A stretch of DNA of 64,000 nucleotides from Elusimicrobia bacterium GWA2_56_46 (lineage in GTDB: Bacteria; Elusimicrobiota; Elusimicrobia; Elusimicrobiales; UBA9959): positions 186,001 to 250,000 of the forward strand of contig MGTT01000011.1 of the NCBI GenBank assembly GCA_001799575.1, read 5' to 3'. Under the pieces are notes generated by a model. The model did no database searches, was not told the DNA's origin, and saw nothing but the letters and a program-made list of their open reading frames with translations. Numbering within the stretch: position 1 is the stretch's first letter; every line of letters starts with the position of its first letter. Shown here one piece after another: positions 31,175-60,317 of the stretch. The translations under genes and the position numbers were made by a program.

Positions 31175-31184
31175 AACATTATCT

Positions 31185-31324
31185 CCCTCATCCCTCATCC
31201 CTCATCCCTCATCCCTCATCCCTCATCCCTCATCCCTCATCCCTCATCCCTCATCCCTCATCCCTCATCCCTCATCCCTCATCCCTCATCCCTCATCCCT
31301 CATCCCTCATCCCTCATCCCTCAT
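31185..31324. repeat. Perfect heptamer array, (CCCTCAT)x20
   Basis: 140 bp, exactly 20 uninterrupted units (GGGATGA in mRNA sense), filling the gap between the PQQ-propeller gene stop (31332) and the PorV-like start. In mRNA sense each unit carries an ATGA start/stop overlap and an AGGG purine core; the last units supply the ribosome-binding purines of the PorV gene. Confidence 0.98.
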
Positions 31325-31331
31325 CCCTTCC

Positions 31332-34850: not shown

Positions 34851-34860
34851 AATAGCCTCT

Positions 34861-34888
34861 CCCTCATCCCTCATCCCTCATCCCTCAT
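34861..34888. repeat. Heptamer array (CCCTCAT)x4 between giant protein and fusion gene
   Basis: GGGATGA in mRNA sense. It spans from just after the giant gene's stop (34898) to the ribosome site of the downstream gene. Confidence 0.95.
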
Positions 34889-34897
34889 CCCTTCTTC

Positions 34898-43800: not shown

Positions 43801-46800
43801 TTTCCGTCGTGCTTGAAGCGTAGACCGGATTGGGCGGATTATCCGGATTTATAGAGGCGGCCAAAGTATAAGCTGTGGCCCCGTCGACCAGAGACCAGGC
43901 CGCCGTCAACTGGCGCGCCGCCACGTTGGTGAAAGCGGAGATGACCGGCCGCGCCGGCGCCAGGCTCTCCGTCACCTGAACCCAGGAATCCCCGCTGACT
44001 CCGGCCGTGGCTCCGCCCAGGGTAGCGGTCACATTCCTGCCGCTGCCCATGGTAACACCGTTGCCGTCGTCGATATAGGCCCTCACCGCCAGCCTGTCTC
44101 CGTTGGAAAGCACGGTAAAGACGGGGAATTTAGCCCAGTTTTGCGCGGCCAGCGTGGTGGTAAGCTCCGCGCGCGGAATAAGAACCGAGGCGATCACGGA
44201 CTGGAGCGCGCCGGAAGCGTCCGCGCGCAAAAGCTCGGCGGTTATGGTGGCGTTTGCCTGAACAGCGCTCTCCCTGGCCCAGATATTAAAGGTGACATTG
44301 CCCGCGATGGTGACCGCGTCCAGGGGATCGGAATACCAGATGACATTCGTTCCCGCCGCGACCCTGGTGAATTGCGTCTCGGCGGTCGGAGGGGTAACTG
44401 TCCCCGCCAGGGTATTCTTGGTGTAGGTCGCCACCGCGGCCCCCATGGTTCTTGTCAGATAGCGCTCATCGTCGGCGCCCGGATCGATGGAAGAGACGGT
44501 ATCCTGAAAATACAGCTTTGTAGCGATCGCCGGCAGCGTAGCGGTCGATTGGGCCGCGCTGTAAGCGGTGAGAATCCCGTTATTATTCAACCCGGCGGCG
44601 CGGAAGTAATAAGTGGTCCTGGAAGCCAGGCCGCTTAAGATCAAACTTACGTCGTAGGTCTCCGACATGACAACCAGCGCGCCGGCGGGATTCAAGGGGT
44701 CGGACGCCGTCGATGACGCCACGCGGTACAAGGTGCCGGGGTAAGGATTGCCGTTGGCTGACCAGTTGAATTGCATATCGTCCGCGCTCACATTTGTAAA
44801 TTCGGTAAACACCGGCGGATTGGCCCAGGTTGAGGTTGACTGAACCGGTGTATTAGCGGTGGGGACGCCGTTATTATTAAGTCCGGCCGCGGTGAAGTAA
44901 TAAGTCGTATTCGCGTTAAGTCCGGAGGAACTCAAGGCCAGATTGTAGGTATCGGAGGCCGTCACCACGGCCCCGCCCGGATTTGAGGGATCCGGCGCGG
45001 TCGAAACCAGAACGCGGTACAGCGTGGTATCCAGCGGATTGCCGTTATTCGACCAGTTAAACTGGATGGCCGAGGAGTCGACACCGCTGAAATTGGCGAA
45101 CACGGGCGCAAAAGCCAGGAGAGTCGAAGTCGCCTCGGCCGCCGCATAATTTGTGGCTATGCCGTTATTGTTAAAGCCGGCTGCGCGGAAATAGTAGGTG
45201 GTATTGGCGTTGAGCCCCGAAGAAGTTAAATAAACGTTATAGGTACTGGAAGCGGTGACCACGGCCCCGCCCGGGTTTGAGGGATCCGGCGCGGTCGACG
45301 TCAGGACGCGGTACAGCGTGCCCGGATAAGGATTCCCTCCTGCCGACCAGTTGAACCGGATGGCGCCCGCGCCAATATCGGTAAAGCCGGAGAATACCGG
45401 TATCCCGGCCAGGCTTGAGGTTGACTGGGCCGCCGTATAGCTGGTGGAAACACCGTTGTTATTAATACCCGCCACCCTGAAATAGTAAGTAGTGTTCGCA
45501 TTCAGCCCGGAGGAGCTTAAAGCCAGGTTATAGGTATCCGAGGTGGTAACTATCGCGGCGCCGGGATCTAATGGATCCTGCGCGGTGGAAGTAAACACCC
45601 GGTAAAGCGTGGTGTTCAGCGCATTGCCGTTGTTAGACCAGTTGAACTGGATGGCGCCCTCCCCCACCCCTGTGAAGCCGGTGAATACGGGCGGAAAGGC
45701 CAGCAGGGTAGAGACGCCGGGATAAGCGGCCCATACGCTTGCCGCCCCCGGCCCATTGGCCCGGACGAAAAGGTAATAGGTGGTGTTAGCCGCCAAAGCG
45801 GGCTCAAAGACGGAAGCGCTGATACTCTGGTTCCCGACCGTGGTGCTGGAAGCGTCTATCGAAGGCGGGGTGGCGGAATTTACGGAGGCGGCCAAAGTGT
45901 AGCCGGTGGCCCCGTCTACCAGCGACCAGTTCGCCGTGATCGAAGTCACATAAACGCCGGTGATCGAACCAATGAGAGGAGCGCCGATCCCGCCCTGGGG
46001 AAGCGTCCTGGCCGCGGCCGGCGCGGTGTAAGAAGTGAGAATGCCGTTATTATTTACGGCCGCCGCCCGGAAATAATAATCGGTATCGGAATTCAGGCCG
46101 GAAGAACTCAGGTAGACATTGTAGGTGTCCGAGGCCGTCACCACCGCGCCGTCCGGAGAAGAGGGATCCGGGGCCGTGGAGACCAGCACCCTGTAAACTG
46201 TTCCCGGAGTATTACCCGCCGAAGACCAGTTAAATTGGATCCTATCCTCCCATACCCCGGTAAAATTCAAGCCCGCGGGCTGGACGGCTAAAGTCGAAGT
46301 GCCCCGGACCGCCGTATAAGCGGTGGAAACGCCGTTGTTGTTAAGTCCGGCCGCGATGAAATAGTAAGAAGCATTCGCGTTAAGCCCGGAGGAAATTAAA
46401 GCCAGGTTATAGGTGTCCGACGCGGTCACCACCGCGCCGCCGGGGTTCAGCGGGTCGGACGCCGTTGAGGTTAAGACGCGGAACAGCGTACCGGGATAAG
46501 GGTTGCCGTTGGCCGACCAGTTAAACTGTATGGCCCCGGCATCCACATCAGTGAAATTAACGAACGCGGGAGCGAAGGCCAGCAGAGTTGAGGTCGATCG
46601 CGCGCCCGTATAACTTGTGGCGGCGCCGTTGTTGTTGATGCCCGCCACGCTGAAGTAATAAGTCGTGTTCGCGTTCAGCCCCGAAGAACTTAAAGCAAGC
46701 TCATAAGTGTCCGACGCGGTCACCACCGCCCCGACCGGATTTGAGGGATCCGGCGCCGTTGAGGTTAAAACACGGTAAAGCGTGATATCCGGCGGATTGC

Positions 46801-49800
46801 CGTTATTCGACCAGTTGAACTGTATAACGTTCGCTCCCACATTCGTGAAATTCGTGAACAATGGCGCATTGGCAAGGGTGGACGTTGACTGGGCCGGCGT
46901 ATAACTTGTGGCTGTGCCGTTGTTATTGATGCCCGCCACACTGAAGTAATAAGTCGTGTTCGCGTTCAGCCCCGAGGAACTTAAGCCAAGATTGTAAGTG
47001 TCCGACGTGGTAACCACCGCCCCCCCCGGGTTAAGCGGATCCGGCGCGGTGGAAGAAACTACGCGGTAAAGCGTGGTGTTCAGCGGGTTGCCGTTGTTAG
47101 ACCAGTTGAATTGGATAACATTCGCTCCCACATTCGTGAAATTCGTGAATACCGGCGCATTGACCCCGGTTGGCGCGCCCTCGACCTCCGTATAGCCTGT
47201 GTCAATGCCGATATTGTTAAATCCAGCCACGCGGAAATAGTAAGTGGTGTTGGCCTTGAGGCCGGCGGAGGTAAAGTAGAGATTATATGTGTCGGACGTT
47301 GTAAACACCTCGCCATCGGGATTCAGGGGGTCGGGCGCCGTGGAAACCTCCACGCGGTACCGTGTGCCGGGGTAAGCATTGCCGTTGGCCGACCAGTTGA
47401 ACCGGATAGCCTCGGCGGAAACATCGGTGAAGTTAGTGAACACCGGCATCTTGGCCAGGGTCGAAATCGGCTGGGCCGGCGTGTAACCTGTGAGGATACC
47501 GTTATTATTGAGCCCGGCCGCCCGGAAATAGTAAGTGGTATTAGCGTTGAGGCCCGAGGAACTTAAAGACATCTTGTATGTGTCGGACGCGGTCACCACG
47601 GCCCCGTCCGGATTTAAAGGATCCGGCGCGGTGGAAGTCAGAACGCGGTAAAGCGTGATATTCAATGGGTTGCCGTTATTCGACCAGTTAAACTGGATAA
47701 CATTCGCTCCCACATTCGTGAAATTAGTGAACACCGGCGCATTGGCCCAGGTTGAAGTTGACTGGGCTGATATATAGCCGCTGGGAACGCTGTTATTATT
47801 GAGTCCGGCTACGCTGAAATAATAAGTCGTATTTGCGTTCAGCCCCGAAGAACTTAGGGCCAGATTGTAGGTGTTGGACGCAGTCACAACCGCCCCGCCG
47901 GGATTTGAGGGATCCGGCGCCGTTGAGGTTAAAACACGGTAAAGCGTGGTGTTCAATGGATTGCCGTTGTTCGACCAGTTAAACTGGATAATATTCGCTC
48001 CCACATTCGTGAAATTCGTGAACACCGGCACATTGACCCGGGTCGAGGTTGACTGGGCCGACGTATAACTGGTAAGAACAGCGTTATTATTAACCCCCGC
48101 CACGCTGAAATAATAAGTGGTATTCGCGTTCAGCCCCGAGGAACTTAGGGCCAGATTGTAGGTGCTGGACGTAGTCACTACCGCCCCGCCGGGATTTGAA
48201 GGATCCGGCGCCGTTGAAGTCAGAACGCGGTAAAGCGTGGTGTTCAATGGATTGCCGTTGTTCGACCAGTTAAACTGGATAGCATTCGCTCCCACATTCG
48301 TGAAATTCGTAAACACCGGCGCATTGGCCCAGGTGGACGTTGACTGGGCTGACGTATAACTGGTAAGAACAGCGTTATTATTAACCCCCGCCACCCGGAA
48401 GTAATAAGTCGTATTCGCGTTCAGCCCCGAGGAACTTAGGGCCAGATTGTAAGTGTTGGACGTAGTCACCACCGCGCTGCCGGGGTTAAGCGGGTCGGGC
48501 GCCGTTGACACCAGAACGCGGTAAAGCGTGGTATTCAGGGGATTGCTGTTGTTCGACCAGTTGAACTGGATGGCTCCGGCGGCAACATTAGTGAAGTTGG
48601 TAAATACCGGCGCATTGGCCCAGGTCGAGGTTGACTGCGCCGCCGTGTAACTGGTTGCGACACCGTTGTTATTAATACCTGCCACCCTGAAGTAATAAGT
48701 CGCATTCGCGTTCAGCCCGGAAGAACTTAAGGCCAGATTGTAGGTGTTAGACGTAGTCACCACCGCCCCGCCGGGATTTGAGGGATCCGGAGCGGTTGAC
48801 GTCAGGACGCGGTACAGCGTGCCCGGATAAGGATTCCCTCCTGCCGACCAGTTGAACCGGATGTCGCCCGCGCCAATATCGGTAAAGCCGGAGAATACCG
48901 GTATCCCGGCCAGGCTTGAGGTTGACTGGGCCGCCGTATAACTGGTGGGAACACCATTGTTATTAATACCCGCCACCCTGAAATAGTAAGTGGTGTTCGC
49001 ATTCAGCCCGGAGGAGCTTAAAGCCAGGTTATAGGTGTCCGAGGTGGTAACTATCGCGGCGCCGGGATCTAATGGATCCTGCGCGGTGGAAGTAAACACC
49101 CGGTAAAGAGTGGTGTTCAGCGCATTGCCGTTGTTAGACCAGTTGAACCGGATGGCCGCGGCGCCCACATTGGTAAAGTTGGCAAACACGGGCGAAAAGG
49201 CCAGCAAAGTTGAAGTTGACTGGGCCGATGTGTAACTTGTGAGGACGGCGTTATTATTAACCCCGGCCACCCTGAAGTAATAAGTCGTGTTCGCGTTCAG
49301 CCCGGAAGAACTTAAGGACAGATTGTAGGTGTTGGACGTCGTCACCACGGCTCCGCCGGGATTTGCGGGATCGGGCGCGGTGGAAGTCAGAACGCGGTAA
49401 AGCGTGGTATTCAGAGGATTTGCGTTGTTCGACCAGTTGAACTGGATGGCGCCGGCGCCCACATTCGTGAAATCAGCGAACACCGGTATATTGGCCCAGG
49501 TCGAGGTTGACTGCGCCGCGGTATAACTGGTGGAGATACCGTTATTGTTAACGCCAGCCACCCGAAAATAGTAAGTGGTGTTGCCGTTTAGCCCGGAAGA
49601 ACTTAAGAACAGATTATAAGTGTCGGATGAAGTTACCACCGCAAGGCCGGGATTAAGCGGATCCGGCGCGGTGGAAGTAAACACCCGGTAAAGCGTGGTA
49701 TTCAGCGCATTGCCGTTGTTAGACCAGTTGAACCGGATGGCCCCGGCGCCCACATTGGTAAAGTTGGTAAACACGGGCGAAAAGGCCAGCAAAGTTGAAG

Positions 49801-51724
49801 TTGACTGGGCCGACGTATAACTGGTGGGAACAGCGTTGTTGTTAATCCCGGCCACCCTGAAGTAATAAGTCGTATTCGCAGTCAATCCGGAAGAGCTTAA
49901 GGACAGATTGTATGTGTTGGACGTCGTCACCACGGCTCCGCCTGGGTTTGAGGGATCCGGCGCGGTGGAAGTCAGAACGCGGTAAAGAGTGGTATTCAGG
50001 GGATTTGCGTTGTTCGACCAGTTGAACTGGATGGCTGAAGAACCGACACCTGTGAAATTGGTGAATACAGGCATATTGGCCCAGGTCGAGGTTGACTGGG
50101 CTGACGTATAACTGGTTGTAATACCGTTATTATTGATGCCCGCCACCCTGAAATAATAAGTCGTGTTCGCGTTCAGACCCGAGGAGCTCAAGTAAATGTT
50201 GTATGTGTTCGACGTGGTCACCACCGCTCCGCCCGGGTTTGAGGGATCCGGCGCCGTAGAAGTCAACACCCGGTAAAGAGTGGCGTTAAGCGGGTTGCCG
50301 TTGTTCGACCAGTTGAACTGGATGACCGAAGAACCGACGCCGGTGAAATTGGCGAACACCGGCGGATTGGCCCAGGTTGAAGTTGACCGGGCCGCGGTAT
50401 AACCGGTGGCGACAGCGTTGTTGTTAACCCCGGCCACCCGGAAGTAATAAGTCGTATTCGCGTTCAGCCCGGAGGAACTCAGATAAAGATTGTAAGTGTT
50501 GGAAGTGGTGACTACCGCATTGCCGGGATTCAGCGGGTCCGGCGCGGTGGACGTCAGCACCCGGTAAAGCGTGGTATTAAGCGGATTGCCGTTGTTTGAC
50601 CAGTTGAACTGGATGACGGACGTGCCTACGCCGGTAAAATTGGCAAATACCGGTATATTTGCCAGAGTCGAGGTGCCCGGATACGCGGCCCAGGGGCTTG
50701 AATTATTGGGGCCGTTGGCGCGCGCAAAAAGGTAATAGGTGGTATTAGGAGCCAAGGCCGGCGTATAAATAACGGCCTCCACGTCTCCGCTAAGCGTGGT
50801 ACTGGAGGCATAAATCGGGGAAGGCGGGTTGGCGGGATTCACGGAGGCCGCCAAAGTGTAGCCGGTCGCCCCGGCGATAAGCGACCAGCCCGCTGTTACG
50901 GAGGTGACACCGACATCGGTAAGGGGAACGGTGATGGCCGGGGAGGAGATGATCATCAGCGCGATCTTCATAAAAGCGTTTATGCTGGAAGTGACGGTGG
51001 CGGTGGTATTGCCTGTCGCCCCGGCCGCCGTTTTGGCAGCGGTTATGACCGCCAGGCCTCCGCCTACGCCTGAGGTGGTTCCGGCATCGGACCATTCCGT
51101 GATGCCGGTCAGGTTCGCGTTGCTCCAGGCAGAAGCGAACGCGGCGGCCGAATCCAGATCGCGCGTCACACCCGCCACCACCAGAGTGTCGTCAACCGTT
51201 GTGGTAATGCCGGTCACATTGACCGAAACCGAAGCGGAGGCTTTCACGCCTCCGCCGGTGATATTCCACGGATCCCCGCCGGGGGTCACGCCCCGGAAAG
51301 TGAGGATCTGGGCGTAAACATGGTTGCCTGAATCCGCGACTCTTGGTGTAGCCATTGCCGAAGACGTGGCCCGGCACCAGTAAACGGCGATGCGCGTTCC
51401 GGCGGTGCCGAGGCCGGTCGCCTGCGGAGAATTCGCGACCTCAACGAATCCGGCGGGGGTAGTCAGGGAGATCGTCTGGCCGCCGGAAGACTCCACGAAC
51501 AACAGAGCGACGTCATTGATCTGATGCGCCGGCCAGGCCGGGTTCACGGAGCTGACGCCGCTGACAGCCGTTCCGGCGGCCTGGAAACGCGGCACTTCGG
51601 CGTGGACGGCAGGGGACACCGCGAAGAAAAAGGCGGACAAAGTGAGGAAAGCGGTAAAAAGCCGCCCGGAACGGAATAAACCGCTCCTGAGCCGCGCCGT
51701 TTTTTTACCCCACAGTTCTCTCAT
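34898..51724 (-). CDS. Giant secreted multi-FN3 protein with lamin-tail and PQQ-propeller domains
   Basis: 5,608 aa from ATG 51724 (a TTG at 51733 is the alternative). A signal peptide ends near residue 42 (SPAVHA-EVP). Residues about 43-260 are a unique domain. About 36 FN3-like modules of roughly 97 residues follow (about 261-3955), with cores such as IQFNWSNNGNPLNTTLYRVL, SSGLNANTTYYFRVAG and NNNGV; four to five are a second type (GATGYTLAASVNPANPPSP). A domain of about 190 residues interrupts the array (43.95-44.53 kb). After it come a sialidase-like propeller region (near 38.2-39.8 kb), two lamin-tail domains (VNEVYPSG...DDWVELYN and INEVSYG...QFIELYN) and a C-terminal PQQ-type propeller. 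It is probably a surface adhesin or polymer-binding protein. It is the second gene after the Rrf2 promoter. Confidence 0.93.
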   Translation of the reverse strand: MRELWGKKTARLRSGLFRSGRLFTAFLTLSAFFFAVSPAVHAEVPRFQAAGTAVSGVSSVNPAWPAHQINDVALLFVESSGGQTISLTTPAGFVEVANSPQATGLGTAGTRIAVYWCRATSSAMATPRVADSGNHVYAQILTFRGVTPGGDPWNITGGGVKASASVSVNVTGITTTVDDTLVVAGVTRDLDSAAAFASAWSNANLTGITEWSDAGTTSGVGGGLAVITAAKTAAGATGNTTATVTSSINAFMKIALMIISSPAITVPLTDVGVTSVTAGWSLIAGATGYTLAASVNPANPPSPIYASSTTLSGDVEAVIYTPALAPNTTYYLFARANGPNNSSPWAAYPGTSTLANIPVFANFTGVGTSVIQFNWSNNGNPLNTTLYRVLTSTAPDPLNPGNAVVTTSNTYNLYLSSSGLNANTTYYFRVAGVNNNAVATGYTAARSTSTWANPPVFANFTGVGSSVIQFNWSNNGNPLNATLYRVLTSTAPDPSNPGGAVVTTSNTYNIYLSSSGLNANTTYYFRVAGINNNGITTSYTSAQSTSTWANMPVFTNFTGVGSSAIQFNWSNNANPLNTTLYRVLTSTAPDPSNPGGAVVTTSNTYNLSLSSSGLTANTTYYFRVAGINNNAVPTSYTSAQSTSTLLAFSPVFTNFTNVGAGAIRFNWSNNGNALNTTLYRVFTSTAPDPLNPGLAVVTSSDTYNLFLSSSGLNGNTTYYFRVAGVNNNGISTSYTAAQSTSTWANIPVFADFTNVGAGAIQFNWSNNANPLNTTLYRVLTSTAPDPANPGGAVVTTSNTYNLSLSSSGLNANTTYYFRVAGVNNNAVLTSYTSAQSTSTLLAFSPVFANFTNVGAAAIRFNWSNNGNALNTTLYRVFTSTAQDPLDPGAAIVTTSDTYNLALSSSGLNANTTYYFRVAGINNNGVPTSYTAAQSTSSLAGIPVFSGFTDIGAGDIRFNWSAGGNPYPGTLYRVLTSTAPDPSNPGGAVVTTSNTYNLALSSSGLNANATYYFRVAGINNNGVATSYTAAQSTSTWANAPVFTNFTNVAAGAIQFNWSNNSNPLNTTLYRVLVSTAPDPLNPGSAVVTTSNTYNLALSSSGLNANTTYYFRVAGVNNNAVLTSYTSAQSTSTWANAPVFTNFTNVGANAIQFNWSNNGNPLNTTLYRVLTSTAPDPSNPGGAVVTTSSTYNLALSSSGLNANTTYYFSVAGVNNNAVLTSYTSAQSTSTRVNVPVFTNFTNVGANIIQFNWSNNGNPLNTTLYRVLTSTAPDPSNPGGAVVTASNTYNLALSSSGLNANTTYYFSVAGLNNNSVPSGYISAQSTSTWANAPVFTNFTNVGANVIQFNWSNNGNPLNITLYRVLTSTAPDPLNPDGAVVTASDTYKMSLSSSGLNANTTYYFRAAGLNNNGILTGYTPAQPISTLAKMPVFTNFTDVSAEAIRFNWSANGNAYPGTRYRVEVSTAPDPLNPDGEVFTTSDTYNLYFTSAGLKANTTYYFRVAGFNNIGIDTGYTEVEGAPTGVNAPVFTNFTNVGANVIQFNWSNNGNPLNTTLYRVVSSTAPDPLNPGGAVVTTSDTYNLGLSSSGLNANTTYYFSVAGINNNGTATSYTPAQSTSTLANAPLFTNFTNVGANVIQFNWSNNGNPPDITLYRVLTSTAPDPSNPVGAVVTASDTYELALSSSGLNANTTYYFSVAGINNNGAATSYTGARSTSTLLAFAPAFVNFTDVDAGAIQFNWSANGNPYPGTLFRVLTSTASDPLNPGGAVVTASDTYNLALISSGLNANASYYFIAAGLNNNGVSTAYTAVRGTSTLAVQPAGLNFTGVWEDRIQFNWSSAGNTPGTVYRVLVSTAPDPSSPDGAVVTASDTYNVYLSSSGLNSDTDYYFRAAAVNNNGILTSYTAPAAARTLPQGGIGAPLIGSITGVYVTSITANWSLVDGATGYTLAASVNSATPPSIDASSTTVGNQSISASVFEPALAANTTYYLFVRANGPGAASVWAAYPGVSTLLAFPPVFTGFTGVGEGAIQFNWSNNGNALNTTLYRVFTSTAQDPLDPGAAIVTTSDTYNLALSSSGLNANTTYYFRVAGINNNGVSTSYTAAQSTSSLAGIPVFSGFTDIGAGAIRFNWSAGGNPYPGTLYRVLTSTAPDPSNPGGAVVTASSTYNVYLTSSGLNANTTYYFRAAGFNNNGIATNYAAAEATSTLLAFAPVFANFSGVDSSAIQFNWSNNGNPLDTTLYRVLVSTAPDPSNPGGAVVTASDTYNLALSSSGLNANTTYYFTAAGLNNNGVPTANTPVQSTSTWANPPVFTEFTNVSADDMQFNWSANGNPYPGTLYRVASSTASDPLNPAGALVVMSETYDVSLILSGLASRTTYYFRAAGLNNNGILTAYSAAQSTATLPAIATKLYFQDTVSSIDPGADDERYLTRTMGAAVATYTKNTLAGTVTPPTAETQFTRVAAGTNVIWYSDPLDAVTIAGNVTFNIWARESAVQANATITAELLRADASGALQSVIASVLIPRAELTTTLAAQNWAKFPVFTVLSNGDRLAVRAYIDDGNGVTMGSGRNVTATLGGATAGVSGDSWVQVTESLAPARPVISAFTNVAARQLTAAWSLVDGATAYTLAASINPDNPPNPVYASSTTENPGATLDTPALDANTTYYLFVRSHDSKASSSWSAYPGTSTLLENAPVFTNFTDVGAGAIQFNWSANGNPYPGTLYRVAVSTAPDPLDPAGAVVTTSNTYNVYFSSAGLNADTTYYFRVAGLNNNSVPTAYTAAQGTATLVAFAPVFANFTNVSANTIQFNWSNNGNPLNTTLYRVLASTAPDPSNPGGAVVTASDTYNLALSSSGLNANATYYFQAAGINKNGIATGYTTAQGTSTWANAPVFTNFTNVAAGAIQFNWSNNGNPPDTTLYRILASTAPDPSNPGGAVVTTSDTYNLALSSSGLSANTTYYFRAAAMNSNSVLTGYTAVQGTSTWANTPVFSNFTNVAAGVIQFNWSNNGNPPDTTLYRVLASTAPDPSSPGGAVVTTSDTYNLALSSSGLSANTTYYFQAAAVNRNSVPSGYTVIQGTATLLANAPVFINFTGLTADAMQLNWSNNGNPLDTTLYRVLASTAPDPSNPGGAVVTASDTYNLALISSGLNANTTYYFRVAGLNRNYVPTSYTAARGTSTLANMPTGRYFTGITPAAIIYNWSATGNASGTRYSVLASTAPDPSAPAGAVVTASVTYNVYLSSSGLAANKAYYFQAAAVNNNGVITSYTSPPDTETTLPIGGIGAPIIGSITGVYVTSMTANWSLVTGATGYTLAASANPANPPSSIDASSTTVGNLSASVFNPALSANATYYLFVRANGPGSVSEWSAYPGTSTLLANAPVFTNFTNVAAGAIQFNWSNNGNPLNTTLYRVLASTALDPSNPGGAVVTTSDTYSLALSSSGLNANTTCYFRVAGLNNNAVPTAYTVAQGTSTWAAVPSFTGFTDISSGSMQANWSPNGNPAATTLYRVLASTAPDPSAPAGAAVTSSDTYNVYLSSAGLDVNATYYFRIAALNRNNILTGYTVAQGTSTLTRPPVFNNFTGVGAGAIQFNWLENGNPLNTTLYRVLASTAPDPSSPAGAVVTASDTYNLALSSSGLNPNTTVYFQVSGLNNNGVPTAYTTVQGTATWANIPLTAVSTFSAASATGFTAAWSGNSNPLPGTTYTVQVSTAQDFNSGAADQVTASTAPASGPAYAFTNLSINTVYYFQVRAVNHNGIYTDYAALGSTRTLTMPAPVIESITGADTNSISASWQLVNEATGYILAASVNPSNPPSPIYASSTTFGKFAVSASVFDPALAPNTTYYLFVRANGNANSSSWSAYPAASTLANLPRSSVSTFSAVADNGFSVSWDNNSNPLGATLYTVQVSTAYDFNVGASDQVTFTTAPASGPGATFSSLNIDTYYYFRVRAQHNNGGFTDWVNLGFVKTKALPVVHSGGDGVIFYGQAGNTMPQFRNYYSAGNNFSAVQNTVSGAAGSLFVIKTNPLSDKQEAVAGYVKDGTLHMLCTDGANWSEEWTQTVGGSELTRRFDIAYETNTGDVMVLYSRDAANTDELGYRIKPGSADCGSGNWSANNNLDPVRTSGVVQWVKMASDRRASSGTIAAIWADDASDLSAMVWNGTAWENEPSAALETSLEVVAVAQDVDDFDVEFESLSGDLMVVWANSAGNNGTNGVRVATAAWTGGTPLHAWGTRYSPPTFDNDATNLDLAANPNSNEMIFASIGNAAGGTSNDMQIGYWSGSAWSNNNDVDATCALPVAGSKLVAAGWLTSGVTTRWLVTYNDASATNIGWYYGTTGAPTLGNPDGTPTPLFANPQVRYDIQQDPVNKDRLIFTVADGASGTGRLFAKRLLMTSVPAFTWSNADGGAALDTSLASTTVGGFSFAFWAAAPSTTFSQSAYRFFNNTDTTDVGVPLAAQDTLAPLPSAGAAFRLRALLHTNQVDLPVDAQDFRLQVAGKGDGTCDAPSGGVPADYTDVTSATVIAFKDNAPADNTALTANAEDPQHGAHTVVNQTYEELNNSTNSVAGIQRNQDGKWDFALKDNGVFPGSVYCLRLVKGDGLLLNSYEVYPELILPALVYVNEVYPSGPSAADDWVELYNNTTSTSPLLGWKLNYVESSIALGGAPITVWTGGAGDVINAGSTFTIVNLPVDLNGGESYHVELLDAGGRLVDQVQWPGPGVLSEGQSFARITDGNPAFLEIDPTPTKNYVNYRATDTFKINEVSYGALNGQFIELYNTSLTSTRTLTGYALRNSYASANGLRFRFTKKIYPRNYALLDFSSVSDDGLSFAYVFGPAGLNGAGDFLTLEDPAGSVEDEVTWQSGASYSRYNYIGETTSVGNYAPAGAVNSIIRQPGEGADTDSNSADFAASAAATLGSRNNNPVPAPANTLAYPLNTGVPQFLARKFPISMTIGSDSSTGTANSIIFGRTGGNPDTRSPHTYRLADIGFNLASLAQQTTVQTGLSFNDQDGYPLAAGATYRVTFNTDTGTKAAPQIILGTVTYDASVHSVTASTSAPLWMNNASRDSAVKLEISNNSPAGFNSLEITTVTFKVLNSVSAPLDTVMAKNLFNAIMLVRDSTSTGIYGRYESGIDVSTIAYIPMSLISLDVNGVSTLTVLAPDLLSASIPAASTRTFYVVFESTQNASARFPDNVFRVSFNSLPTLTVRDGPSDQPEEFTPSAQVETSSITIIAPALPPEGTTWPYAPPTNTVVEAMAGYYTYDGDTSPTVSSAVYMTSTDGYLRAVKKDGTIKWAYPTDTLSPIRTSPMPVVEAGGLYLYFADDNGDVYKIRDNDSSAGLSWKKSIGAPIRSNLMCSDVSCSGDVFYFGAGDNTVRCLNKADGTPCSGWTYASAITAPISGMMAIDNRATVNTAWIGLEDGKMVALKTGDGTSPTSYQTGAAIKSSPYLDARVADPNNVLYFTSTDGKLYARISSNLSNVPAGWPAGATEPEKDYHAGAPIYTSPFVTWEETKYIFFGDDAGRLHKVNAATGLSAAGWPFQAGGAIRSFPNWLPDTVYTPQGGADYVYFGCDDGYIYAVNANTGVLRPGWPVATGGPVRADIVIDTANMTLVVGSTDGKTYVLKIGP
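45298..45650. repeat. Near-identical copy A within the FN3 array
   Basis: By eye about eight mismatches over 353 bp against 48799-49151, at an offset of 3,501 bp (1,167 codons, 12 modules), far closer than other modules are to one another. Indicates recent gene conversion or segmental duplication. Confidence 0.75.
48799..49151. repeat. Near-identical copy B within the FN3 array
   Basis: Partner of 45298-45650; the offset keeps frame exactly. Confidence 0.75.
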
Positions 51725-51746
51725 AAAAATCAAGTTCTCTCTTCTG

Positions 51747-51774
51747 CCTTTAGCCTTTAGCCTTCAGCCTTTCC
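51747..51774. repeat. Heptamer tract (CCTTTAG family) at the Rrf2 gene end, four units
   Basis: CCTTTAG, CCTTTAG, CCTTCAG, CCTTTCC. The Rrf2 stop (TAA, 51759-51757) and its last four codons are in the tract. Confidence 0.85.
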
Positions 51775-52155
51775 CTTGTCGTTTTCATTCATCATTTCTA
51801 TGATATCCTGCACGGTCAGGCCTACAAGCCAGTGATTAACCTCGTCGCGCAGGGTCTCATACAGCTTAATGGACAGCTCTTTCTTTTCCGTACCGGGCGC
51901 GCCGTTAAAAGTGAAAGCTTCCATCAGCTCCCAGACGCTTATATTGTCCAGATCCTTGCGCAGCCGGTAACCCCTGCCTTTCTGCGATTCCACGAAACCG
52001 GCGTGAACCAGCGCCTGCAAAACCTTATTGCAGTAAGGCGCGGGCAGGCCCTGAAAACGCGAGATGTCGGCCACCTGGTTCCACTGTCCGCCATTGTTCC
52101 GGCCGAGATAATGCAGACAGGCAAGTCCATAAGCGAGAGTCTTGTTCATTTTCAT
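51757..52155 (-). CDS. Rrf2-family transcriptional regulator
   Basis: 132 aa from ATG 52155 (GAGAAG five bases upstream). It has the Rrf2 winged-helix layout: LAYGLACLHYLGRNNGGQW, the recognition-helix part ADISRFQGLPAPYCNKVLQALVHAGFVES, and the wing KGRGYRLRKD. The three clustered cysteines that bind Fe-S in IscR-type proteins are absent, so it probably senses something else. It is followed after 32 bp by the giant FN3 gene. Its own promoter overlaps a perfect palindrome, so autoregulation and control of the giant gene are likely. Confidence 0.88.
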   Translation of the reverse strand: MKMNKTLAYGLACLHYLGRNNGGQWNQVADISRFQGLPAPYCNKVLQALVHAGFVESQKGRGYRLRKDLDNISVWELMEAFTFNGAPGTEKKELSIKLYETLRDEVNHWLVGLTVQDIIEMMNENDKGKAEG

Positions 52156-52185
52156 AAGTCTTCTCATGTCAGTGGTTCTTGGGTG

Positions 52186-52293: not shown

Positions 52294-53382
52294 TTAGGGG
52301 CTTGACTTTTGATACAAAGCATTAGCCATGGCGCAGGCGGGCTTGTTGGGGGCGAAAACGTCGCCTTCCTCAATAAGACTTACGCCAGGGCAGCGGCTGC
52401 AAAAATCGATATGCGGACAGGAAGCGCATTTGCCCATTTCTTTCACGCCGACCGAACGCCATTTTTTAAGCCAGCGGGAGTTCTTCCACAGGCCGGCAAA
52501 GCGTTCGCGCTTAAGATTACCCAGTTTCACCGGCAATTGCAGGCAGGGATAAAGCTCCCCCCCGGGATCCACGGCGCAGACATTCCGGCCGGCGCCGCAG
52601 GGAAAGCCAAAGGCTGAAGGATGAAGGCTAAAGGATAAAGGGACGGAAGGGGGTGAGGGAGGCGAGGGAAGGGATGAGGGATGAGGGATGAGGGATGAAG
52701 AAAGGGAGAGGAGATTAACGGCTTTTGCGAGCTGGCGGCTGGAGAGGCGGAATTTAAGGGCGGCGTCGTCGCCGTCACTGGCCGCGGTTATTACCGGGTC
52801 GAATGAGATCCCGAAACCCTCGCGCTTCGCCAGGGCCTTCAGCCAGCCGATCTGCGGCAGGTTTGTCTTCATCAGCGGGATCTTCATCCTCACTTTTATG
52901 CCGGCTTTTTTCAGCAGGCGGGAGGCCGAAAGACTGCCCTCAAAAGACCCTTTCAGACCGGTAATAGCGTCATGAATCTGCGCGCGGCCGTAAAAACTGA
53001 TCTCAAAACCGGAAACCCCCGCTTTTTTCAACTTCAGCGCCAGCGCTCCGTCCATCCCCAGGCCGGTTGAAAAGATCCGCACGTCGAATTTAAGTTTTTT
53101 GGCGCGGGCACACAGCTCCGCCAGGTCCGGCCTGAGCAGCGGTTCCCCCCCGGTAAACACCAGGTAAAGCGCTCCGGCCTCCGCCAGTTGCGCCAGGATC
53201 TTCCCCCATTGCGCGGCCGGCAGCTCGGAACCGGGCGCGGCGCGGCCGCGCGTTTCGGGCAGGTAGCAATGCCGGCAGCTGAGCGGGCAGCGCCGGGTGA
53301 GCTCGATGGTGACCGAGACCGGAATATTGCGCTCAAGAGTGAGCGTATTAAGTTTCGCCGCCGGGGATTGTTCAGGCTGCAT
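52294..53382 (-). CDS. Radical SAM/SPASM peptide-modifying enzyme with heptamer insertion
   Basis: 362 aa. The 4Fe-4S radical SAM motif is C32-PLS-C36-RH-C39-Y; FTGGEPLLRPDL follows as the GGEP motif. A C-terminal SPASM domain has cysteines in FPCGAGRNVC, LYPCLQLP, GKCASCPHIDFCSRC and KPAC, enough for auxiliary clusters. Such enzymes form thioether or other bonds in ribosomal peptides, or act in heme/cofactor pathways. Between barrel and SPASM (about residues 225-260) a Ser/Pro-rich segment is encoded by about 13 mixed heptamers. It has no fused leader-binding domain, but a stand-alone PqqD-like protein and a small Cys peptide are encoded just upstream. It overlaps the S26 peptidase gene by 11 nt. 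Confidence 0.9.
   Translation of the reverse strand: MQPEQSPAAKLNTLTLERNIPVSVTIELTRRCPLSCRHCYLPETRGRAAPGSELPAAQWGKILAQLAEAGALYLVFTGGEPLLRPDLAELCARAKKLKFDVRIFSTGLGMDGALALKLKKAGVSGFEISFYGRAQIHDAITGLKGSFEGSLSASRLLKKAGIKVRMKIPLMKTNLPQIGWLKALAKREGFGISFDPVITAASDGDDAALKFRLSSRQLAKAVNLLSLSSSLIPHPSSLPSPPSPPSVPLSFSLHPSAFGFPCGAGRNVCAVDPGGELYPCLQLPVKLGNLKRERFAGLWKNSRWLKKWRSVGVKEMGKCASCPHIDFCSRCPGVSLIEEGDVFAPNKPACAMANALYQKSSP
52610..52699. repeat. In-frame mixed heptamer array in the radical SAM gene
   Basis: Starts AAGGCTG, AAGGATG, AAGGCTA, AAGGATA and passes into GATGAGG-type units (plus strand). mRNA sense is pyrimidine-rich and open, giving a Ser/Pro/Leu/His-rich linker. Confidence 0.9.
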
Positions 53383-53767
53383 GCGGATATTTATACGGGG
53401 ACAGACGGCGCCGGATGGCGGAATAAATACGGCCGCAGATCCCGCCGGCGAACGGATTGCGGCTCAACACCCTGCCCCGGATCCGCTCCAGGAGAACAAA
53501 ATGCGGCGCCAGCCGACCGGCGTCGTCCGCGAGCCAGACGCCATCGGACGCGGTTTTTATTACGCGGTGGAGCAGCGTGGTCCCATTGTAAGAATAGACG
53601 GCGCAATCGCCTGAAGAAAGGATGAGGGATGGGGGGATGGGGAGGGATGAGGGATGAGGGATGAGGGATGAGGATTGAGAACTGAGGGAAGAGACAAGCA
53701 CGACTTCGCCGGATTTGAATACCGGGGACATGCTGGAACCTTCAAGGCGGAAAGCCGAAGCGGCCAT
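53372..53767 (-). CDS. S24/S26-type signal peptidase-like protease
   Basis: 131 aa from ATG 53767, 5 bp after the stop of the small peptide gene. The nucleophile Ser lies in FRLEGSSMSPVFKSGEVVLV; GDCAVYSYNG and LLHRVI follow, giving His in the place where LepB has Lys, as in ER/archaeal-type S26B signal peptidases. No membrane anchor is obvious. A heptamer-encoded loop (SLIPHPSSLPIPPS) separates the Ser motif from the GD motif. It is a plausible leader peptidase for the adjacent 45-aa peptide. Confidence 0.82.
   Translation of the reverse strand: MAASAFRLEGSSMSPVFKSGEVVLVSSLSSQSSSLIPHPSSLPIPPSLILSSGDCAVYSYNGTTLLHRVIKTASDGVWLADDAGRLAPHFVLLERIRGRVLSRNPFAGGICGRIYSAIRRRLSPYKYPHAA
53617..53690. 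repeat. In-frame heptamer array in the S26 peptidase gene
   Basis: Degenerate GGATGAG/GGGATGG units around a core of four GGGATGA copies (plus strand), TCATCCC in mRNA sense. Confidence 0.88.
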
Positions 53768-53772
53768 GATTG

Positions 53773-53910
53773 TCAGGAAAACTTTTTGAGGCTTCTGCAG
53801 GCCAGCTGGTTTATGGGACCGGTAATACACTTACCGCAGGCCAGGGCCGCCGTCTCAAACACTTTTTCGGTTTTCAGTTTCGGCTTTTCGTACGGTTTTT
53901 TCTTTTTCAT
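53773..53910 (-). CDS. 45-aa Cys-containing precursor peptide (RiPP-like)
   Basis: Too short for ordinary ORF calling. The start ATG (53910-53908) overlaps the PqqD-like stop as ATGA, and the TGA stop is 5 bp before the S26 peptidase. The N-terminal half is a Lys-rich leader (MKKKKPYEKPKLKTEKVFET) and the C-terminal half (AALACGKCITGPINQLAC, then RSLKKFS) has three cysteines: C25, C28, C38. A leader with YxKPxLxxEKVFExxALACGK fits small peptides found next to PqqD/radical SAM pairs. Proposed as the substrate of the neighbouring radical SAM enzyme, with PqqD as leader binder and the S26 protease as leader peptidase. The order and coupling are seen; the product is inferred. Confidence 0.8.
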   Translation of the reverse strand: MKKKKPYEKPKLKTEKVFETAALACGKCITGPINQLACRSLKKFS

Positions 53911-54161
53911 AAAATCAGTCCGGATTTTGAAAGTTCGCCGAGAAACTCCCGCAGATCCGAGCGGGCTTCTTTTTCGCTTACTTCGAATTCGGCGAGGAGC
54001 TCCGAAATAATGCGCGGCTCGCTTTTACCGGCGGCCAGTCCCTCCCAGATGAGCGCGGCCGGGCCGTTCAGTTCGTGCAGGCGGGAGGCGGCCGCGTCCA
54101 CTATGAACAATTCTCCCGCCACGCGCCGGAAAGCCAGATTTTCCCTTATCTTTGGAGCCAT
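53907..54161 (-). CDS. PqqD-like RiPP recognition element
   Basis: 84 aa, the full PqqD length. Winged-helix pattern: LAFRRVAGELFIVDAAASRL, the hallmark HELNGPAALIWEGLA, ISELLAEFEVSEKEARSDLREFL and a terminal LSKSGLIL. PqqD-type proteins bind RiPP leader peptides and present them to radical SAM partners. It overlaps the 45-aa peptide start by 4 nt and follows the HprK-like kinase by 7 bp. No heptamer insertion. Confidence 0.9.
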   Translation of the reverse strand: MAPKIRENLAFRRVAGELFIVDAAASRLHELNGPAALIWEGLAAGKSEPRIISELLAEFEVSEKEARSDLREFLGELSKSGLIL

Positions 54162-54168
54162 AGACAGA

Positions 54169-54999
54169 TTATATAAGATTTAAAAATCCGGCGTCCTTGT
54201 TTGTGAATTCAAGCCGCGCAAACTCCGCCCCGGCCAGCAGCGCCGCCGCATTATCCAGCGCCGCGGCGGAAGTTTCCGTGCTTTTGGAAAAATTCATCAG
54301 GCATCTGAGCAGCAGCCGGAGGGCCTCCCCGGGAACCGCGGCTGAAATCTTATTCCGCTTCGCCTTTTTCAGGATAAACACCTTCGCCAGGGGCCAGACT
54401 CCCTGGCGGCCTTCGTTGCGCATCTCACCCCAGAATGGCGAGCCGTAAACCACGAACCGGCCCTTTTCAAAACGCACAAGGTTCAGCTCGTCGCTGATAA
54501 CTTCAGCCCCGGGGGAGGGATGAGGGATGAGGGATGAGGGATGAGGAACAAAAGCCGCGAGCTTGGAGAGCGTGGATTTGCCTGCGCCCGATTTTCCCAG
54601 GAACAGACACGCTTTTCCGCCTTTCAGCAGCCCCGCGCTATGCAGGAGCATCCCTCCCTCGCGCAAAAGAGCCCAACTGTAAAAAGAACGCAGAAAAGAA
54701 TCAAAAGTCTGTACGCGCAGCGCTGCCTTGAGAACGCCAGAACCCGTCTTCAAATCCAAAACACAGTCAAAGTCCCCCCGCTTCAGACGCAGGATCCCGC
54801 GCTCCTCCCTTACAGCGGGCCTGAACGGCGCCTGGGAACCGGGGATGGAAAGCGCAGAAAAGCGGTAAAAGGGCGCTGCTGCGGCCGGAAATTTTTCATA
54901 GCGCCGCGCCACAAGCCCGCGGAAAGCGGCCTCCGGAAAGTCAAAAGCGGCCGCCAGGCCCGCGGTTTCAAAGAACACCGGAGCCGGCCGCGCCGTCAC
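54169..54999 (-). CDS. HprK-like kinase of a PqqD/radical SAM cluster
   Basis: 276 aa from GTG 54999 (GTGA overlap with the pilin-like gene's stop). The C-terminal half resembles the HPr kinase catalytic domain: MLLHSAGLLKGGKACLFLGK, Walker A LGKSGAGKST, then ISDELNLV as the second metal-binding motif, FVVYGSPFWGEM and LAKVFILKKA. It has no HPr-binding N-terminal domain. HprK-related kinases with PqqD proteins are known from several peptide-modification loci; the target is unknown. Residues between Walker A and ISDE include a heptamer-encoded FVPHPSSLIPHPSPG. Confidence 0.82.
   Translation of the reverse strand: MTARPAPVFFETAGLAAAFDFPEAAFRGLVARRYEKFPAAAAPFYRFSALSIPGSQAPFRPAVREERGILRLKRGDFDCVLDLKTGSGVLKAALRVQTFDSFLRSFYSWALLREGGMLLHSAGLLKGGKACLFLGKSGAGKSTLSKLAAFVPHPSSLIPHPSPGAEVISDELNLVRFEKGRFVVYGSPFWGEMRNEGRQGVWPLAKVFILKKAKRNKISAAVPGEALRLLLRCLMNFSKSTETSAAALDNAAALLAGAEFARLEFTNKDAGFLNLI
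54517..54544. repeat. In-frame heptamer array in the HprK-like kinase, four units
   Basis: (GGGATGA)x4 on plus, TCATCCC in mRNA sense, right after the Walker A helix. Confidence 0.95.
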
Positions 55000-56252
55000 G
55001 GAAGCGCGGCAGGCCACGGGGTAAGGGTATCCTGCCAGGACTGGCGCACGAGGTTAATGTTGGTGGTTATGATGCCGGCAGCGATGTCGGGGTCATAATA
55101 CACTCTGCAATGAGAATTGGAATTTATGTCCGCGGTGCCGTTAACGACTATGGCTCCGTGCAGCAGGTCATCGCTGCCGCCGCCGTTGGGGAGCTTCAGA
55201 TCGCCGCCCACATATACTAAGCCGTGTATGGCTGGATTGATGGATTTAACAAGATTTGGCCGGTAGCTGGTATTAATATTTCCGAAGCAGGCCGGAGTCG
55301 CGACCGGCAGAGTCGGATCGAAATTGGTCCGGTAGTAGGCCCAGTCATTGCAGTACTGCTTCCAGGCTTCCGGCGGAACCGTCGCGTTATAGGCTCCCAC
55401 CGTGGGCTGGCTCCCGTTCGAAAAAGTAAGATTGCCTATGACGATAATATTGCCTTTGATCGCGCTTCTGAAATCGGTCCAGTTGCCCTCGATATAATAA
55501 GTCTTCCCGTTAAGCGAGTCGCAGTTGGTACTCCAGTTGCCAGGCTGGTAGTAAGCGTGCCCGCAGGGATCGTTGCCGGCGGCGATGGCGGAACTCTTAT
55601 AGTCGGAAAAACTTATCGACGGCATGGGCGGGAGCGCGGCGTAGTAGGAATGCCACCACCAGCAGTTGGGGGAGTCGCAGTTATTCCCTCCCGGGCCGTC
55701 GGTATCCTTGTCTATTCCCGCGGCGCTCCAGTAGGAGGGATGCAGCTTGCCTAAAATTGAGATCGCCCGGGGGCTGGAAACGGAGCCCCACTCCACCTCT
55801 ATATTATTCCCGTTCATCGTGACGCCCTTGGCCGCCGCTATGCTGACGTCGCTCATGAGGGAGTTGGCGTAAACGGCTTTCAGCGCGCGCGTCTCCCCGT
55901 TCTTTTTATCGCGCCCCACCCCTATAATGGTCACCTCCCCTAAATTCGGGCCGCTGGTCACGGAAACAGCGTAAGAGCCGCCGGCCAGATCGGTAAACGA
56001 AAAGTTAAAGGCCATTCCGGGAAGGGCCTGGCCCGCCTGCACGGCCGCCCACGTCTGCGTAGACTCTATCACTTTCTGATAGCCGCGCTCCAGCGCCCCC
56101 TCCGCAAGCTGGAAAGCGTTGGTGTTCTGCCCCTGCTTCACGCTCCATTTGGTCTCATTCTGCACGTACATTACCAGGATCGGCAGGATTATGGCCAGCA
56201 CCGCCACCAGCAGAATAGCCCCCGCTAAAAGCTGCCCCTCGCGTGTTTTCAT
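54996..56252 (-). CDS. PilX-like pilus assembly protein
   Basis: 418 aa. An N-terminal membrane helix (about 8-29, LLAGAILLVAVLAIILPILVM) without the Gly-Phe/Tyr-xxx-Glu prepilin site, then a helical stretch and FQLAEGALERGYQKV as in PilX N-domains. A C-terminal Cys- and Trp-containing domain (about 160-410) has no match I recognise; it carries CDSPNCWWWHSYYAA and several NGT/NNxx stretches. It overlaps the upstream prepilin gene by 1 nt and the downstream HprK-like gene by 4 nt. Confidence 0.78.
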   Translation of the reverse strand: MKTREGQLLAGAILLVAVLAIILPILVMYVQNETKWSVKQGQNTNAFQLAEGALERGYQKVIESTQTWAAVQAGQALPGMAFNFSFTDLAGGSYAVSVTSGPNLGEVTIIGVGRDKKNGETRALKAVYANSLMSDVSIAAAKGVTMNGNNIEVEWGSVSSPRAISILGKLHPSYWSAAGIDKDTDGPGGNNCDSPNCWWWHSYYAALPPMPSISFSDYKSSAIAAGNDPCGHAYYQPGNWSTNCDSLNGKTYYIEGNWTDFRSAIKGNIIVIGNLTFSNGSQPTVGAYNATVPPEAWKQYCNDWAYYRTNFDPTLPVATPACFGNINTSYRPNLVKSINPAIHGLVYVGGDLKLPNGGGSDDLLHGAIVVNGTADINSNSHCRVYYDPDIAAGIITTNINLVRQSWQDTLTPWPAALP

Positions 56253-56746
56253 CAGTTCATTATCCTCACTTTCTGGATCGAAAGCTGCAACGCCTTTTTC
56301 CCGCCGCGATAAGTCGCCGACTGCGCCGTTATAGCCACGGAAAGCAGCGTTATATCGTCGCTGCGCGGGTAAATGAAAGAGATGTAGGCGAGATTTTCCG
56401 TCAGCATCGTAACCTTGCCGGACATGCTCATATACAGTTTATTCCCGCTCTGGTAAAACGAAACTACCGGCCCCTGCACGCTGGTGAAAGTCACGCGCGA
56501 GGCCGGCGGCTGACCCGGCTCCGCGTCGATCACCACGGTGGAACTTTTGGCCTGCCTGGCGAAGCGGTTTATTATATCCAGGCTGCCGCGCACGTCGCGC
56601 TGGATAGCGTTCCTGGCCGTGGTCTGCCGCCAGAAATTGGTCATCTGCATCAGCAGCGGCACGGCCATGCCGCCCACCACCCCCAGGATGGCTACGGTCA
56701 TCATCACCTCAACAAGCGTGTACCCCTTTTTAGGTTTCATGGCCAT
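56252..56746 (-). CDS. PilW-like type IV prepilin
   Basis: 164 aa. The prepilin cleavage site is KKG|YTLVEVMMTVAILGVVGG, with Glu at +5 and a short leader. GGGAAG lies eight bases before ATG 56746; an ATG two codons later forms an ATGA overlap with the previous stop. The C-terminal pseudopilin domain is short and mainly beta. It is coupled to the genes on both sides. Confidence 0.87.
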   Translation of the reverse strand: MAMKPKKGYTLVEVMMTVAILGVVGGMAVPLLMQMTNFWRQTTARNAIQRDVRGSLDIINRFARQAKSSTVVIDAEPGQPPASRVTFTSVQGPVVSFYQSGNKLYMSMSGKVTMLTENLAYISFIYPRSDDITLLSVAITAQSATYRGGKKALQLSIQKVRIMN

Positions 56747-59481: not shown

Positions 59482-59483
59482 AT

Positions 59484-59553
59484 CCCTCATCCCTCATCCC
59501 TCATCCCTCATCCCTCATCCCTCATCCCTCATCCCTCATCCCTCATCCCTCAT
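59484..59553. repeat. Perfect heptamer array, (CCCTCAT)x10
   Basis: 70 bp between the Spy-like stop (59556) and the prepilin start (59481). GGGATGA in mRNA sense; it supplies the purine tract before the prepilin start. Confidence 0.97.
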
Positions 59554-59555
59554 CC

Positions 59556-60317
59556 CTATGGGTACGTCCCCGCGGCTTCGTCCGTTTCCGGGGCCGGGGA
59601 TTCCTTGCCGGCGGAAGCGGCTTTTTTCCTCAAGCCCCTTCTTTTTTTGGGAGCGGAGGGCGCGACGGCCGGCTGCTCGTTATCCACCATCATCAGACCC
59701 GGTTCCTCCTCCGGCGGCGCGGCGGCGGCGGGGAGGGCCGGCGCGGCCGGGGCGGCCGCTTCGGATCCGGGAACCGCGTTGGAGGAGCGGGGCAGCTTCC
59801 TCCGCCTTACCGGCCGTTTCTTCCTGGCGGGTTTGGGCTCTTCGGCGAACCCTGGCGCCGCCTGCGGCTCGTCTTTTTTTATTTCCGGCTGGGCCGGCTT
59901 ATTCCCGGCCGCGAGCATGGCATCATAGGTCTGGCGCTGGTCGTCATCGAGAAAATCCCTGATAAGATCCGGCATCTCCTTGCTTATCCTGGCCATTTCG
60001 TATTTCAGTTCATTGCCTTTGTACCGCCATTTTTTCTCTTCGGCGGAAACCTGGTCGTATTCCTTGAGCAGTTTGTCGAAATCCCTGCTTTTCTTGTCCA
60101 TGGCGGCGGTAATGCGCTCCTCCTGCTTGGCGCTCAGGCGCAGCTCCGCGCTCAGTTCAGCCAGCGCCCTCTGCGCGTCGGGCCGCTGGGTCCGAACTTC
60201 CCCGGCCTCCGCGGCCGGGTTCTCCTGCATACCGGGCAGACCGGGCAGCAGCAGATCGTCGGCTTTTACCGGGGACGCCGGCAAAAGCAGCGCCGCTAAA
60301 ATAAGCATTGTTTTCAT
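59556..60317 (-). CDS. Spy/CpxP-like periplasmic protein with low-complexity tail
   Basis: 253 aa from ATG 60317 (GGAGG six bases before). A signal peptide (MKTMLILAALLLPASPVKA) is followed by an all-helical segment (about 40-140) with the LTxxQ-like pattern: LRLSAKQEERITAAMDKK and LIRDFLDDDQRQTYDAML. The rest is Pro/Ala/Lys-rich with basic clusters (ARKKRPVRRRK, KKRRGLRKK), which may bind envelope polymers. The stop codon is in a degenerate last heptamer. It could chaperone the envelope proteins encoded downstream. Confidence 0.72.
   Translation of the reverse strand: MKTMLILAALLLPASPVKADDLLLPGLPGMQENPAAEAGEVRTQRPDAQRALAELSAELRLSAKQEERITAAMDKKSRDFDKLLKEYDQVSAEEKKWRYKGNELKYEMARISKEMPDLIRDFLDDDQRQTYDAMLAAGNKPAQPEIKKDEPQAAPGFAEEPKPARKKRPVRRRKLPRSSNAVPGSEAAAPAAPALPAAAAPPEEEPGLMMVDNEQPAVAPSAPKKRRGLRKKAASAGKESPAPETDEAAGTYP

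Follow-up and report, generated by a model that had tools for sequence, protein, structure and literature searches.

A putative RiPP cassette of Elusimicrobiota that combines an HprK/PEPCK-fold kinase, a PqqD-like protein, a soluble S26B-type protease and a radical SAM/SPASM enzyme

What might be produced by five adjoining genes of Elusimicrobia bacterium GWA2_56_46 that encode a kinase, a PqqD-like protein, a peptide of 45 amino acids, a soluble S26B-type protease and a radical S-adenosylmethionine (SAM)/SPASM enzyme? The genes occupy 52294-55017 on the minus strand of the stretch of DNA analysed here (the window; 64,000 nt, contig MGTT01000011.1, positions 186,001-250,000), and all coordinates without a locus label are window positions. 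An initial annotation had described them as an uncharacterised system resembling those for ribosomally synthesized and post-translationally modified peptides (RiPPs), a description that the conservation of the peptide supports. Indeed, a conserved short precursor with a leader and a core lies beside modifying enzymes, and we regard the locus as almost certainly a RiPP-type cassette. Its members are as follows.

54169..55017, minus strand: kinase of the HprK/PEPCK fold, predicted peptide Ser kinase; 282 amino acids from GTG
53907..54161, minus strand: PqqD-like RiPP recognition element (RRE); 84 amino acids; PF05402, E=2.6e-14
53773..53910, minus strand: precursor peptide of 45 amino acids, MKKKKPYEKPKLKTEKVFETAALA followed by CGKCITGPINQLACRSLKKFS, with the proposed cut between the two; 45 homologues
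53372..53767, minus strand: S26B-type (Ser-His-Asp) peptidase, soluble, predicted leader peptidase; 131 amino acids from ATG at 53767
52294..53382, minus strand: radical SAM/SPASM enzyme, predicted core modifier; 362 amino acids; PF04055 (Radical_SAM) 3.8e-21, PF13186 (SPASM) 8e-8

The spacings from the kinase to the radical SAM gene (7 bp, a 4-bp overlap, 5 bp and an 11-bp overlap) confirm the tight linkage that had been claimed for the five genes, and the profile matches bear out the PqqD and radical SAM/SPASM assignments. The extent first proposed, 52294-54999, holds the five open reading frames (ORFs) but stops slightly short, as the kinase ORF begins with a GTG codon at 55017; its true start is uncertain. 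An alternative, longer protease ORF from 53830 would run into the peptide gene and is not needed.

The initial annotation had staked its reading beforehand on the conservation of the peptide ORF in homologous loci, and the ORF is conserved, with matches in 60 of 341 Elusimicrobiota genomes at E<=0.1 and in about 55 at E<=1e-5; counting all matches, these span 28 of 100 genera. Among ungapped relatives, codon divergence per site is 0.49 at the third position and 0.15 and 0.16 at the first and second, an excess typical of a translated gene. The ORF at 53773-53910 is thus a real gene by its homologues and its codon-position bias, which together rule out a chance ORF. It is also the best-conserved part of the cassette, with a mean identity to the window copy of 71% over 44 loci, compared with 41% for the kinase, 44% for PqqD, 43% for S26 and 49% for the radical SAM enzyme.

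The peptide homologues share a strict architecture. In all 45, the Tyr of a Y-x-x-P-x-[ILMVF] motif lies exactly 18 residues N-terminal of C-x-K-C, an A-x-A-like site (A/G at -1, A/S/T at -3) precedes the core, and the core itself comprises 21-23 residues with exactly three Cys, which extends across the family the three C-terminal cysteines noticed at the outset. The leader is Lys-rich and the core cationic. The C-terminal residue is Ser in 45 of 45, while the penultimate position takes ten different identities and the antepenultimate is Lys or Arg in 42.

The five genes are co-located across many families in two gene orders, namely kinase-PqqD-peptide-S26-radical SAM in the family of the window and kinase-PqqD-radical SAM-peptide-S26 in distant families. 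The kinase is found in 63 of the 341 genomes, largely those with the peptide, and parts that have become unlinked are still kept: the kinase lies on another contig in genome G107 and elsewhere in G329, the radical SAM gene on another contig in G133, and in G239 the peptide and S26 share one contig and kinase-PqqD-radical SAM another. Two genomes, G111 and G114, are peptide-positive without a kinase match, and in both the peptide is near a contig end. A core-motif pattern, which would miss other cores, was run against 84,980 species and returned 40 loci and no homologues outside Elusimicrobiota; 38 of the loci fall under Elusimicrobia, Endomicrobia and related names, and the remaining two appear to be genomes of the same phylum already in the 341-genome set. 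Spread by phage or plasmid finds no support, with 0 relatives in viral contigs (IMG/VR) and 0 in plasmids.

The first step that the cassette suggests is recognition of the leader. The best NCBIfam match of the PqqD-like protein is the lasso PqqD NF033530 (6e-10), and it reaches 29 of 35 bits for PqqD_rel_X, both below cut-off. YxxP/L is the recognition sequence of a group of RREs to which FusE and McjB of the lasso pathways belong, as do PqqD and sactipeptide StsC (PMC12710340), and the YxxPxL of BsfA spans -17 to -12 (PMC10368454); the corresponding motif here would lie at -18 to -13 if cleavage occurs at ALA/C (the slash marks the cut). With an RRE and a matching leader motif both present, it is very likely that Y-x-x-P-x-[hydrophobic] in the Lys-rich leader is the site bound by the PqqD-like protein, which would thereby present the peptide to the enzymes.

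The second step would be modification of the core. The CxxxCxxC motif and the SPASM cysteines are conserved in 51 radical SAM homologues, and we consider it likely, with good confidence, that this enzyme acts on the core, where it would install a cross-link within C-x-K-C...C. For the bond itself there are two candidates: the three Cys could take part in a thioether, or the invariant Lys of CxKC could be the residue joined. The maturases of sactipeptides and ranthipeptides (PapB, StsB, AlbA) similarly pair a SPASM enzyme with a Cys core, and the PapB model aligns over its full length, but their models score far below cut-off (PapB 63/340, StsB 55/625), and the three conserved core Cys are the sole matching feature on the peptide side. 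We know of no kinase in such systems.

The kinase carries invariant H126, P-loop G141-x4-GK(S/T) and D176-E177. Its sequence scores weakly against the ScmC, HprK_rel_A and PEPCK profiles (ScmC and HprK_rel_A below cut-off), and its profile finds mainly P-loop matches among PDB sequences, so the assignment was settled by fold comparison: in Foldseek, the AlphaFold (AF2) model (predicted local distance difference test, pLDDT, 91.9) finds PEPCK of the ATP-dependent type at E=1.7e-9 and HprK/P of L. casei at 7e-5. The call of an HprK-like kinase therefore stands, the modelled fold being that of the superfamily of HprK-type Ser kinases. The analogy for its chemistry draws on two papers. In lasso-peptide pathways, HprK homologues act on the linear precursor, phosphorylating its C-terminal Ser and making little demand on the remaining peptide (PMC8498205), and BsfK requires its His, P-loop and Asp for activity and is aided by the B1 protein (PMC10368454). 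The residues corresponding to this His, P-loop and Asp are invariant in the Elusimicrobiota kinases, and by analogy it is reasonably likely that the kinase acts on the invariant C-terminal Ser of the peptide, as the lasso-peptide kinases do. Since such kinases target a C-terminal Ser and the peptide always ends in one, a shift of +80 Da would be expected besides the loss due to cross-linking.

We note that other cassettes with an HprK-like kinase, PqqD and radical SAM genes occur in the phylum beside different Cys-containing precursors (L085:9501-9686, L090:11161-11376, L087 (L162) and L089:3027-3167). Those of L085, L087/L162 and L090 end in Ser, so that the C-terminal-Ser rule applies to part of this wider set of kinase-associated precursors; this recurrence in three further precursors may yield a general rule for predicting the substrates of peptide-pathway kinases. 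The L087 and L090 cassettes contain three radical SAM genes.

The protease retains Ser, His and Asp as invariant or near-invariant residues in its homologues, its profile best matches SEC11A/C among solved relatives (SEC11A 5e-6), and its model (pLDDT 94) adopts the LexA/signal-peptidase fold, although the E-values from Foldseek are weak (about 1e-3, at prob 1.00). The original His-type S26 call is thereby upheld. In most loci about 8 residues precede the catalytic Ser, with neither an N-terminal anchor nor a clear transmembrane segment, in contrast to the membrane anchor of type I signal peptidases; the loci in which S26 is fused to a secreted protein are the exception. In view of this short N-terminus, S26 should face the cytoplasm, and removal of the leader in the cytosol is its most plausible role. 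It shares Ser-His-Asp, the S26/LexA fold and an A-x-A-like site in the presumed substrate with the S26B signal peptidases (SEC11, SipW), from which it differs in the missing anchor and its presumed cytosolic location. A-L-A before C is a signal-peptidase-like site, and we lean towards cleavage by S26 at ALA/C; the cut (ALA/CGKC) would free a core of 21-23 residues, CGKC...C....S(P). In-frame fusions that place the S26 domain at the N-terminus of a giant secreted protein occur in four genomes, which represent three families (L061:1-3540, L062:1-3369, L065:8170-15999 and L070:8857-11568).

Taken as a whole, the account that we favour, with fair confidence, is an Elusimicrobiota-specific RiPP cassette whose peptide is bound, cross-linked, phosphorylated at its C-terminus and cleaved at ALA/C. 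We infer each of these chemical steps from the genes, folds, active-site residues, conservation and linkage described above. Several observations weigh against it. BsfK, an HprK-like lasso kinase, targets Ser3 rather than the C-terminus (PMC10368454), which means that the C-terminal-Ser rule is not universal, and the precursor of the related L089 cassette ends in Leu beside a kinase. Genome G143 lacks a peptide next to its kinase and PqqD, there is no transporter in the cassette, and the conservation of YxxP and of the terminal Ser could partly reflect common descent.

Among described systems, phosphorylated lasso peptides are the nearest by logic and SynChlorMet is the nearest by parts list. 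Lasso clusters with HprK-like kinases (paeninodin PadeK; ThcoK, SyanK; BsfK) share a discrete PqqD-type RRE, a YxxPx[L] leader, the same kinase catalytic residues and the terminal Ser, whereas here a radical SAM/SPASM enzyme and S26 stand in place of the B2 peptidase and cyclase, and the core has three Cys. The PqqD-type B1 protein and YxxPxL leader expected of a lasso cluster are both present, but the NF033530 match is below cut-off and YxxP is not lasso-specific. A lasso peptide is ruled out, as the B2 peptidase (Transglut_core3, PF13471) was found in 0 of 11 genomes tested and the cassette has no Asn-synthetase-like cyclase; the only PF00733 match of the genome is on another contig (C26).

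SynChlorMet (NCBIfam ScmC/D/E/F) likewise has an HprK-like kinase, ScmC, which is the best NCBIfam match of the kinase here, together with PqqD-like ScmD and SPASM enzymes, of which it has two and this cassette one. It is rejected on scores far below cut-off (ScmC 23/125, ScmD 15/100, ScmE 88/400, ScmF 56/400). HPr-rel-A (HprK_rel_A and PqqD_rel_X), which has an HprK-related kinase and a PqqD chaperone in common, is set aside for the same reason (TIGR04352 20/200 bits, TIGR04353 29/35 bits), as is GeoRSP (TIGR04303 108/400 bits, TIGR04302 25/100 bits). The initial annotation had placed the combination outside the standard RiPP classes. This holds in that scores fall below the curated cut-offs and lasso B2 is lacking, but the pairing of an HprK-like kinase with PqqD has precedent in SynChlorMet, HPr-rel-A and lasso clusters. 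We found no described precedent for the joint occurrence of these three enzyme types (Ser kinase, SPASM enzyme, soluble S26B leader peptidase), nor any earlier description of the cassette in the open-licence literature, although it may have been described elsewhere. If the favoured account is true, this would be, to our knowledge, the first RiPP class in which radical SAM chemistry is joined by phosphorylation of a C-terminal Ser.

The family makes up a candidate RiPP class whose core is nearly invariant across a phylum that is mostly uncultured, and its role is therefore probably physiological. The core hardly varies and the peptide is single-copy in the genome of the window, suggesting that the product is an endogenous factor, active at the surface, in signalling or as a cofactor, and not an antibiotic; a non-antibiotic role is, in our judgement, probable. 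Which role it might be is hinted at by the neighbouring genes.

34898..51733, minus strand: giant secreted FN3-like repeat protein, associated neighbour outside the core cassette; 5611 amino acids, many near-identical repeats
51757..52167, minus strand: Rrf2-family regulator, possible regulator outside the core cassette; PF02082 5.6e-18
54996..56252, minus strand: PilX-like gene (pilin-like), upstream neighbour; in the family by synteny
56252..56746, minus strand: N_methyl pilin-like gene, upstream neighbour; PF07963
56737..59490, minus strand: N_methyl/CarboxypepD_reg pilin-like gene, upstream neighbour; PF07963, PF13620

Of the 38 loci with room for it, 29 have an ORF of 1100 amino acids or more on the same strand within 4 kb downstream of the cassette, and 0 of 38 have one upstream, the upstream side of the same loci being the only control for this frequency. 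These downstream giants are secreted Ig/FN3-like or related proteins, and the domains at this position vary across the phylum. Given their frequency, the cassette product may serve the cell surface, and a surface-related role is plausible. In 21 loci a gene of the Rrf2 family stands downstream of the cassette. Inspection of the Rrf2-family protein shows no three-Cys cluster of the IscR type. The pilin-like genes upstream are a feature of the family of the window, while in most distant families an HD-domain (HD_5) or related protein stands directly upstream of the kinase in place of the pilins (L064:4717-5838 and relatives).

The one-sided placement of the giants also gives the best-surviving alternative, namely that the peptide, once modified, belongs to the downstream giant as its structural subunit, its anchor or a factor in its maturation, much as a small cross-linked subunit belongs to an enzyme complex, and that no small molecule is set free. 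The fusions of S26 to the giant N-terminus in L061, L062, L065 and L070, the pilin-like genes upstream in the family of the window and the near-invariant core all fit such a partnership. However, the giants differ in domain content between loci, and L069, L093 and L117 have room for one and carry none, so that we hold this alternative possible but distinctly less probable than the general account. More tentative still is an extension of the favoured account that would join the two, in which a phylum-wide RiPP family yields, instead of a toxin, a SPASM-crosslinked, C-terminally phosphorylated factor of cytosolic origin dedicated to the cell surface, freed by the soluble S26B protease, that may mature, display or control the adjoining giant.

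The same four fusions could be taken to mean that S26 and the kinase serve other substrates, such as the giant protein, pilins or HPr, and that PqqD and the radical SAM enzyme alone act on the peptide. Dedicated S26 proteases for surface fibres do exist, for example Bacillus SipW. We consider this division of labour unlikely: a protease with so short a stretch before its catalytic Ser and no clear transmembrane segment should face the cytoplasm and not exported substrates, and the A-x-A-like site and invariant terminal Ser of the peptide suit the protease and the kinase.

Slightly less likely again is a role as a sacrificial scaffold, in which the peptide would supply the residues of a small redox cofactor, as for PQQ or mycofactocin, to be cross-linked by the SPASM enzyme and later excised. 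PqqD, a SPASM enzyme and a peptidase beside a single-copy, highly conserved core would be in keeping with this, but a two-residue cofactor would need neither the C-terminal Ser, nor the whole core, nor the kinase, all of which are conserved. Moreover, the SPASM scores fall far below the PqqE and mycofactocin cut-offs, and the cassette contains no further cofactor-processing enzyme. Finally, although antimicrobial RiPPs of the sactipeptide or ranthipeptide kind typically combine a SPASM enzyme with a cationic three-Cys core, such a product is the least likely here, since antimicrobials usually diversify whereas this core is nearly constant across the phylum, the peptide is single-copy, and no ABC exporter or immunity gene is seen in the cassettes.

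We also note tandem GGATGAG heptamers in the window, at 52670-52698, 53620-53673, 54515-54546, 59355-59387, 59482-59557, 31066-31327 and 34439-34891. Exact 15-mers of the repeat number 46 in the window and 178 in the genome, with 0 for a reversed-pattern control. The heptamers are often in frame, where they encode LIPHPSS repeats in the kinase, S26 and radical SAM enzyme that most relatives lack, and elsewhere they form facing arrays.

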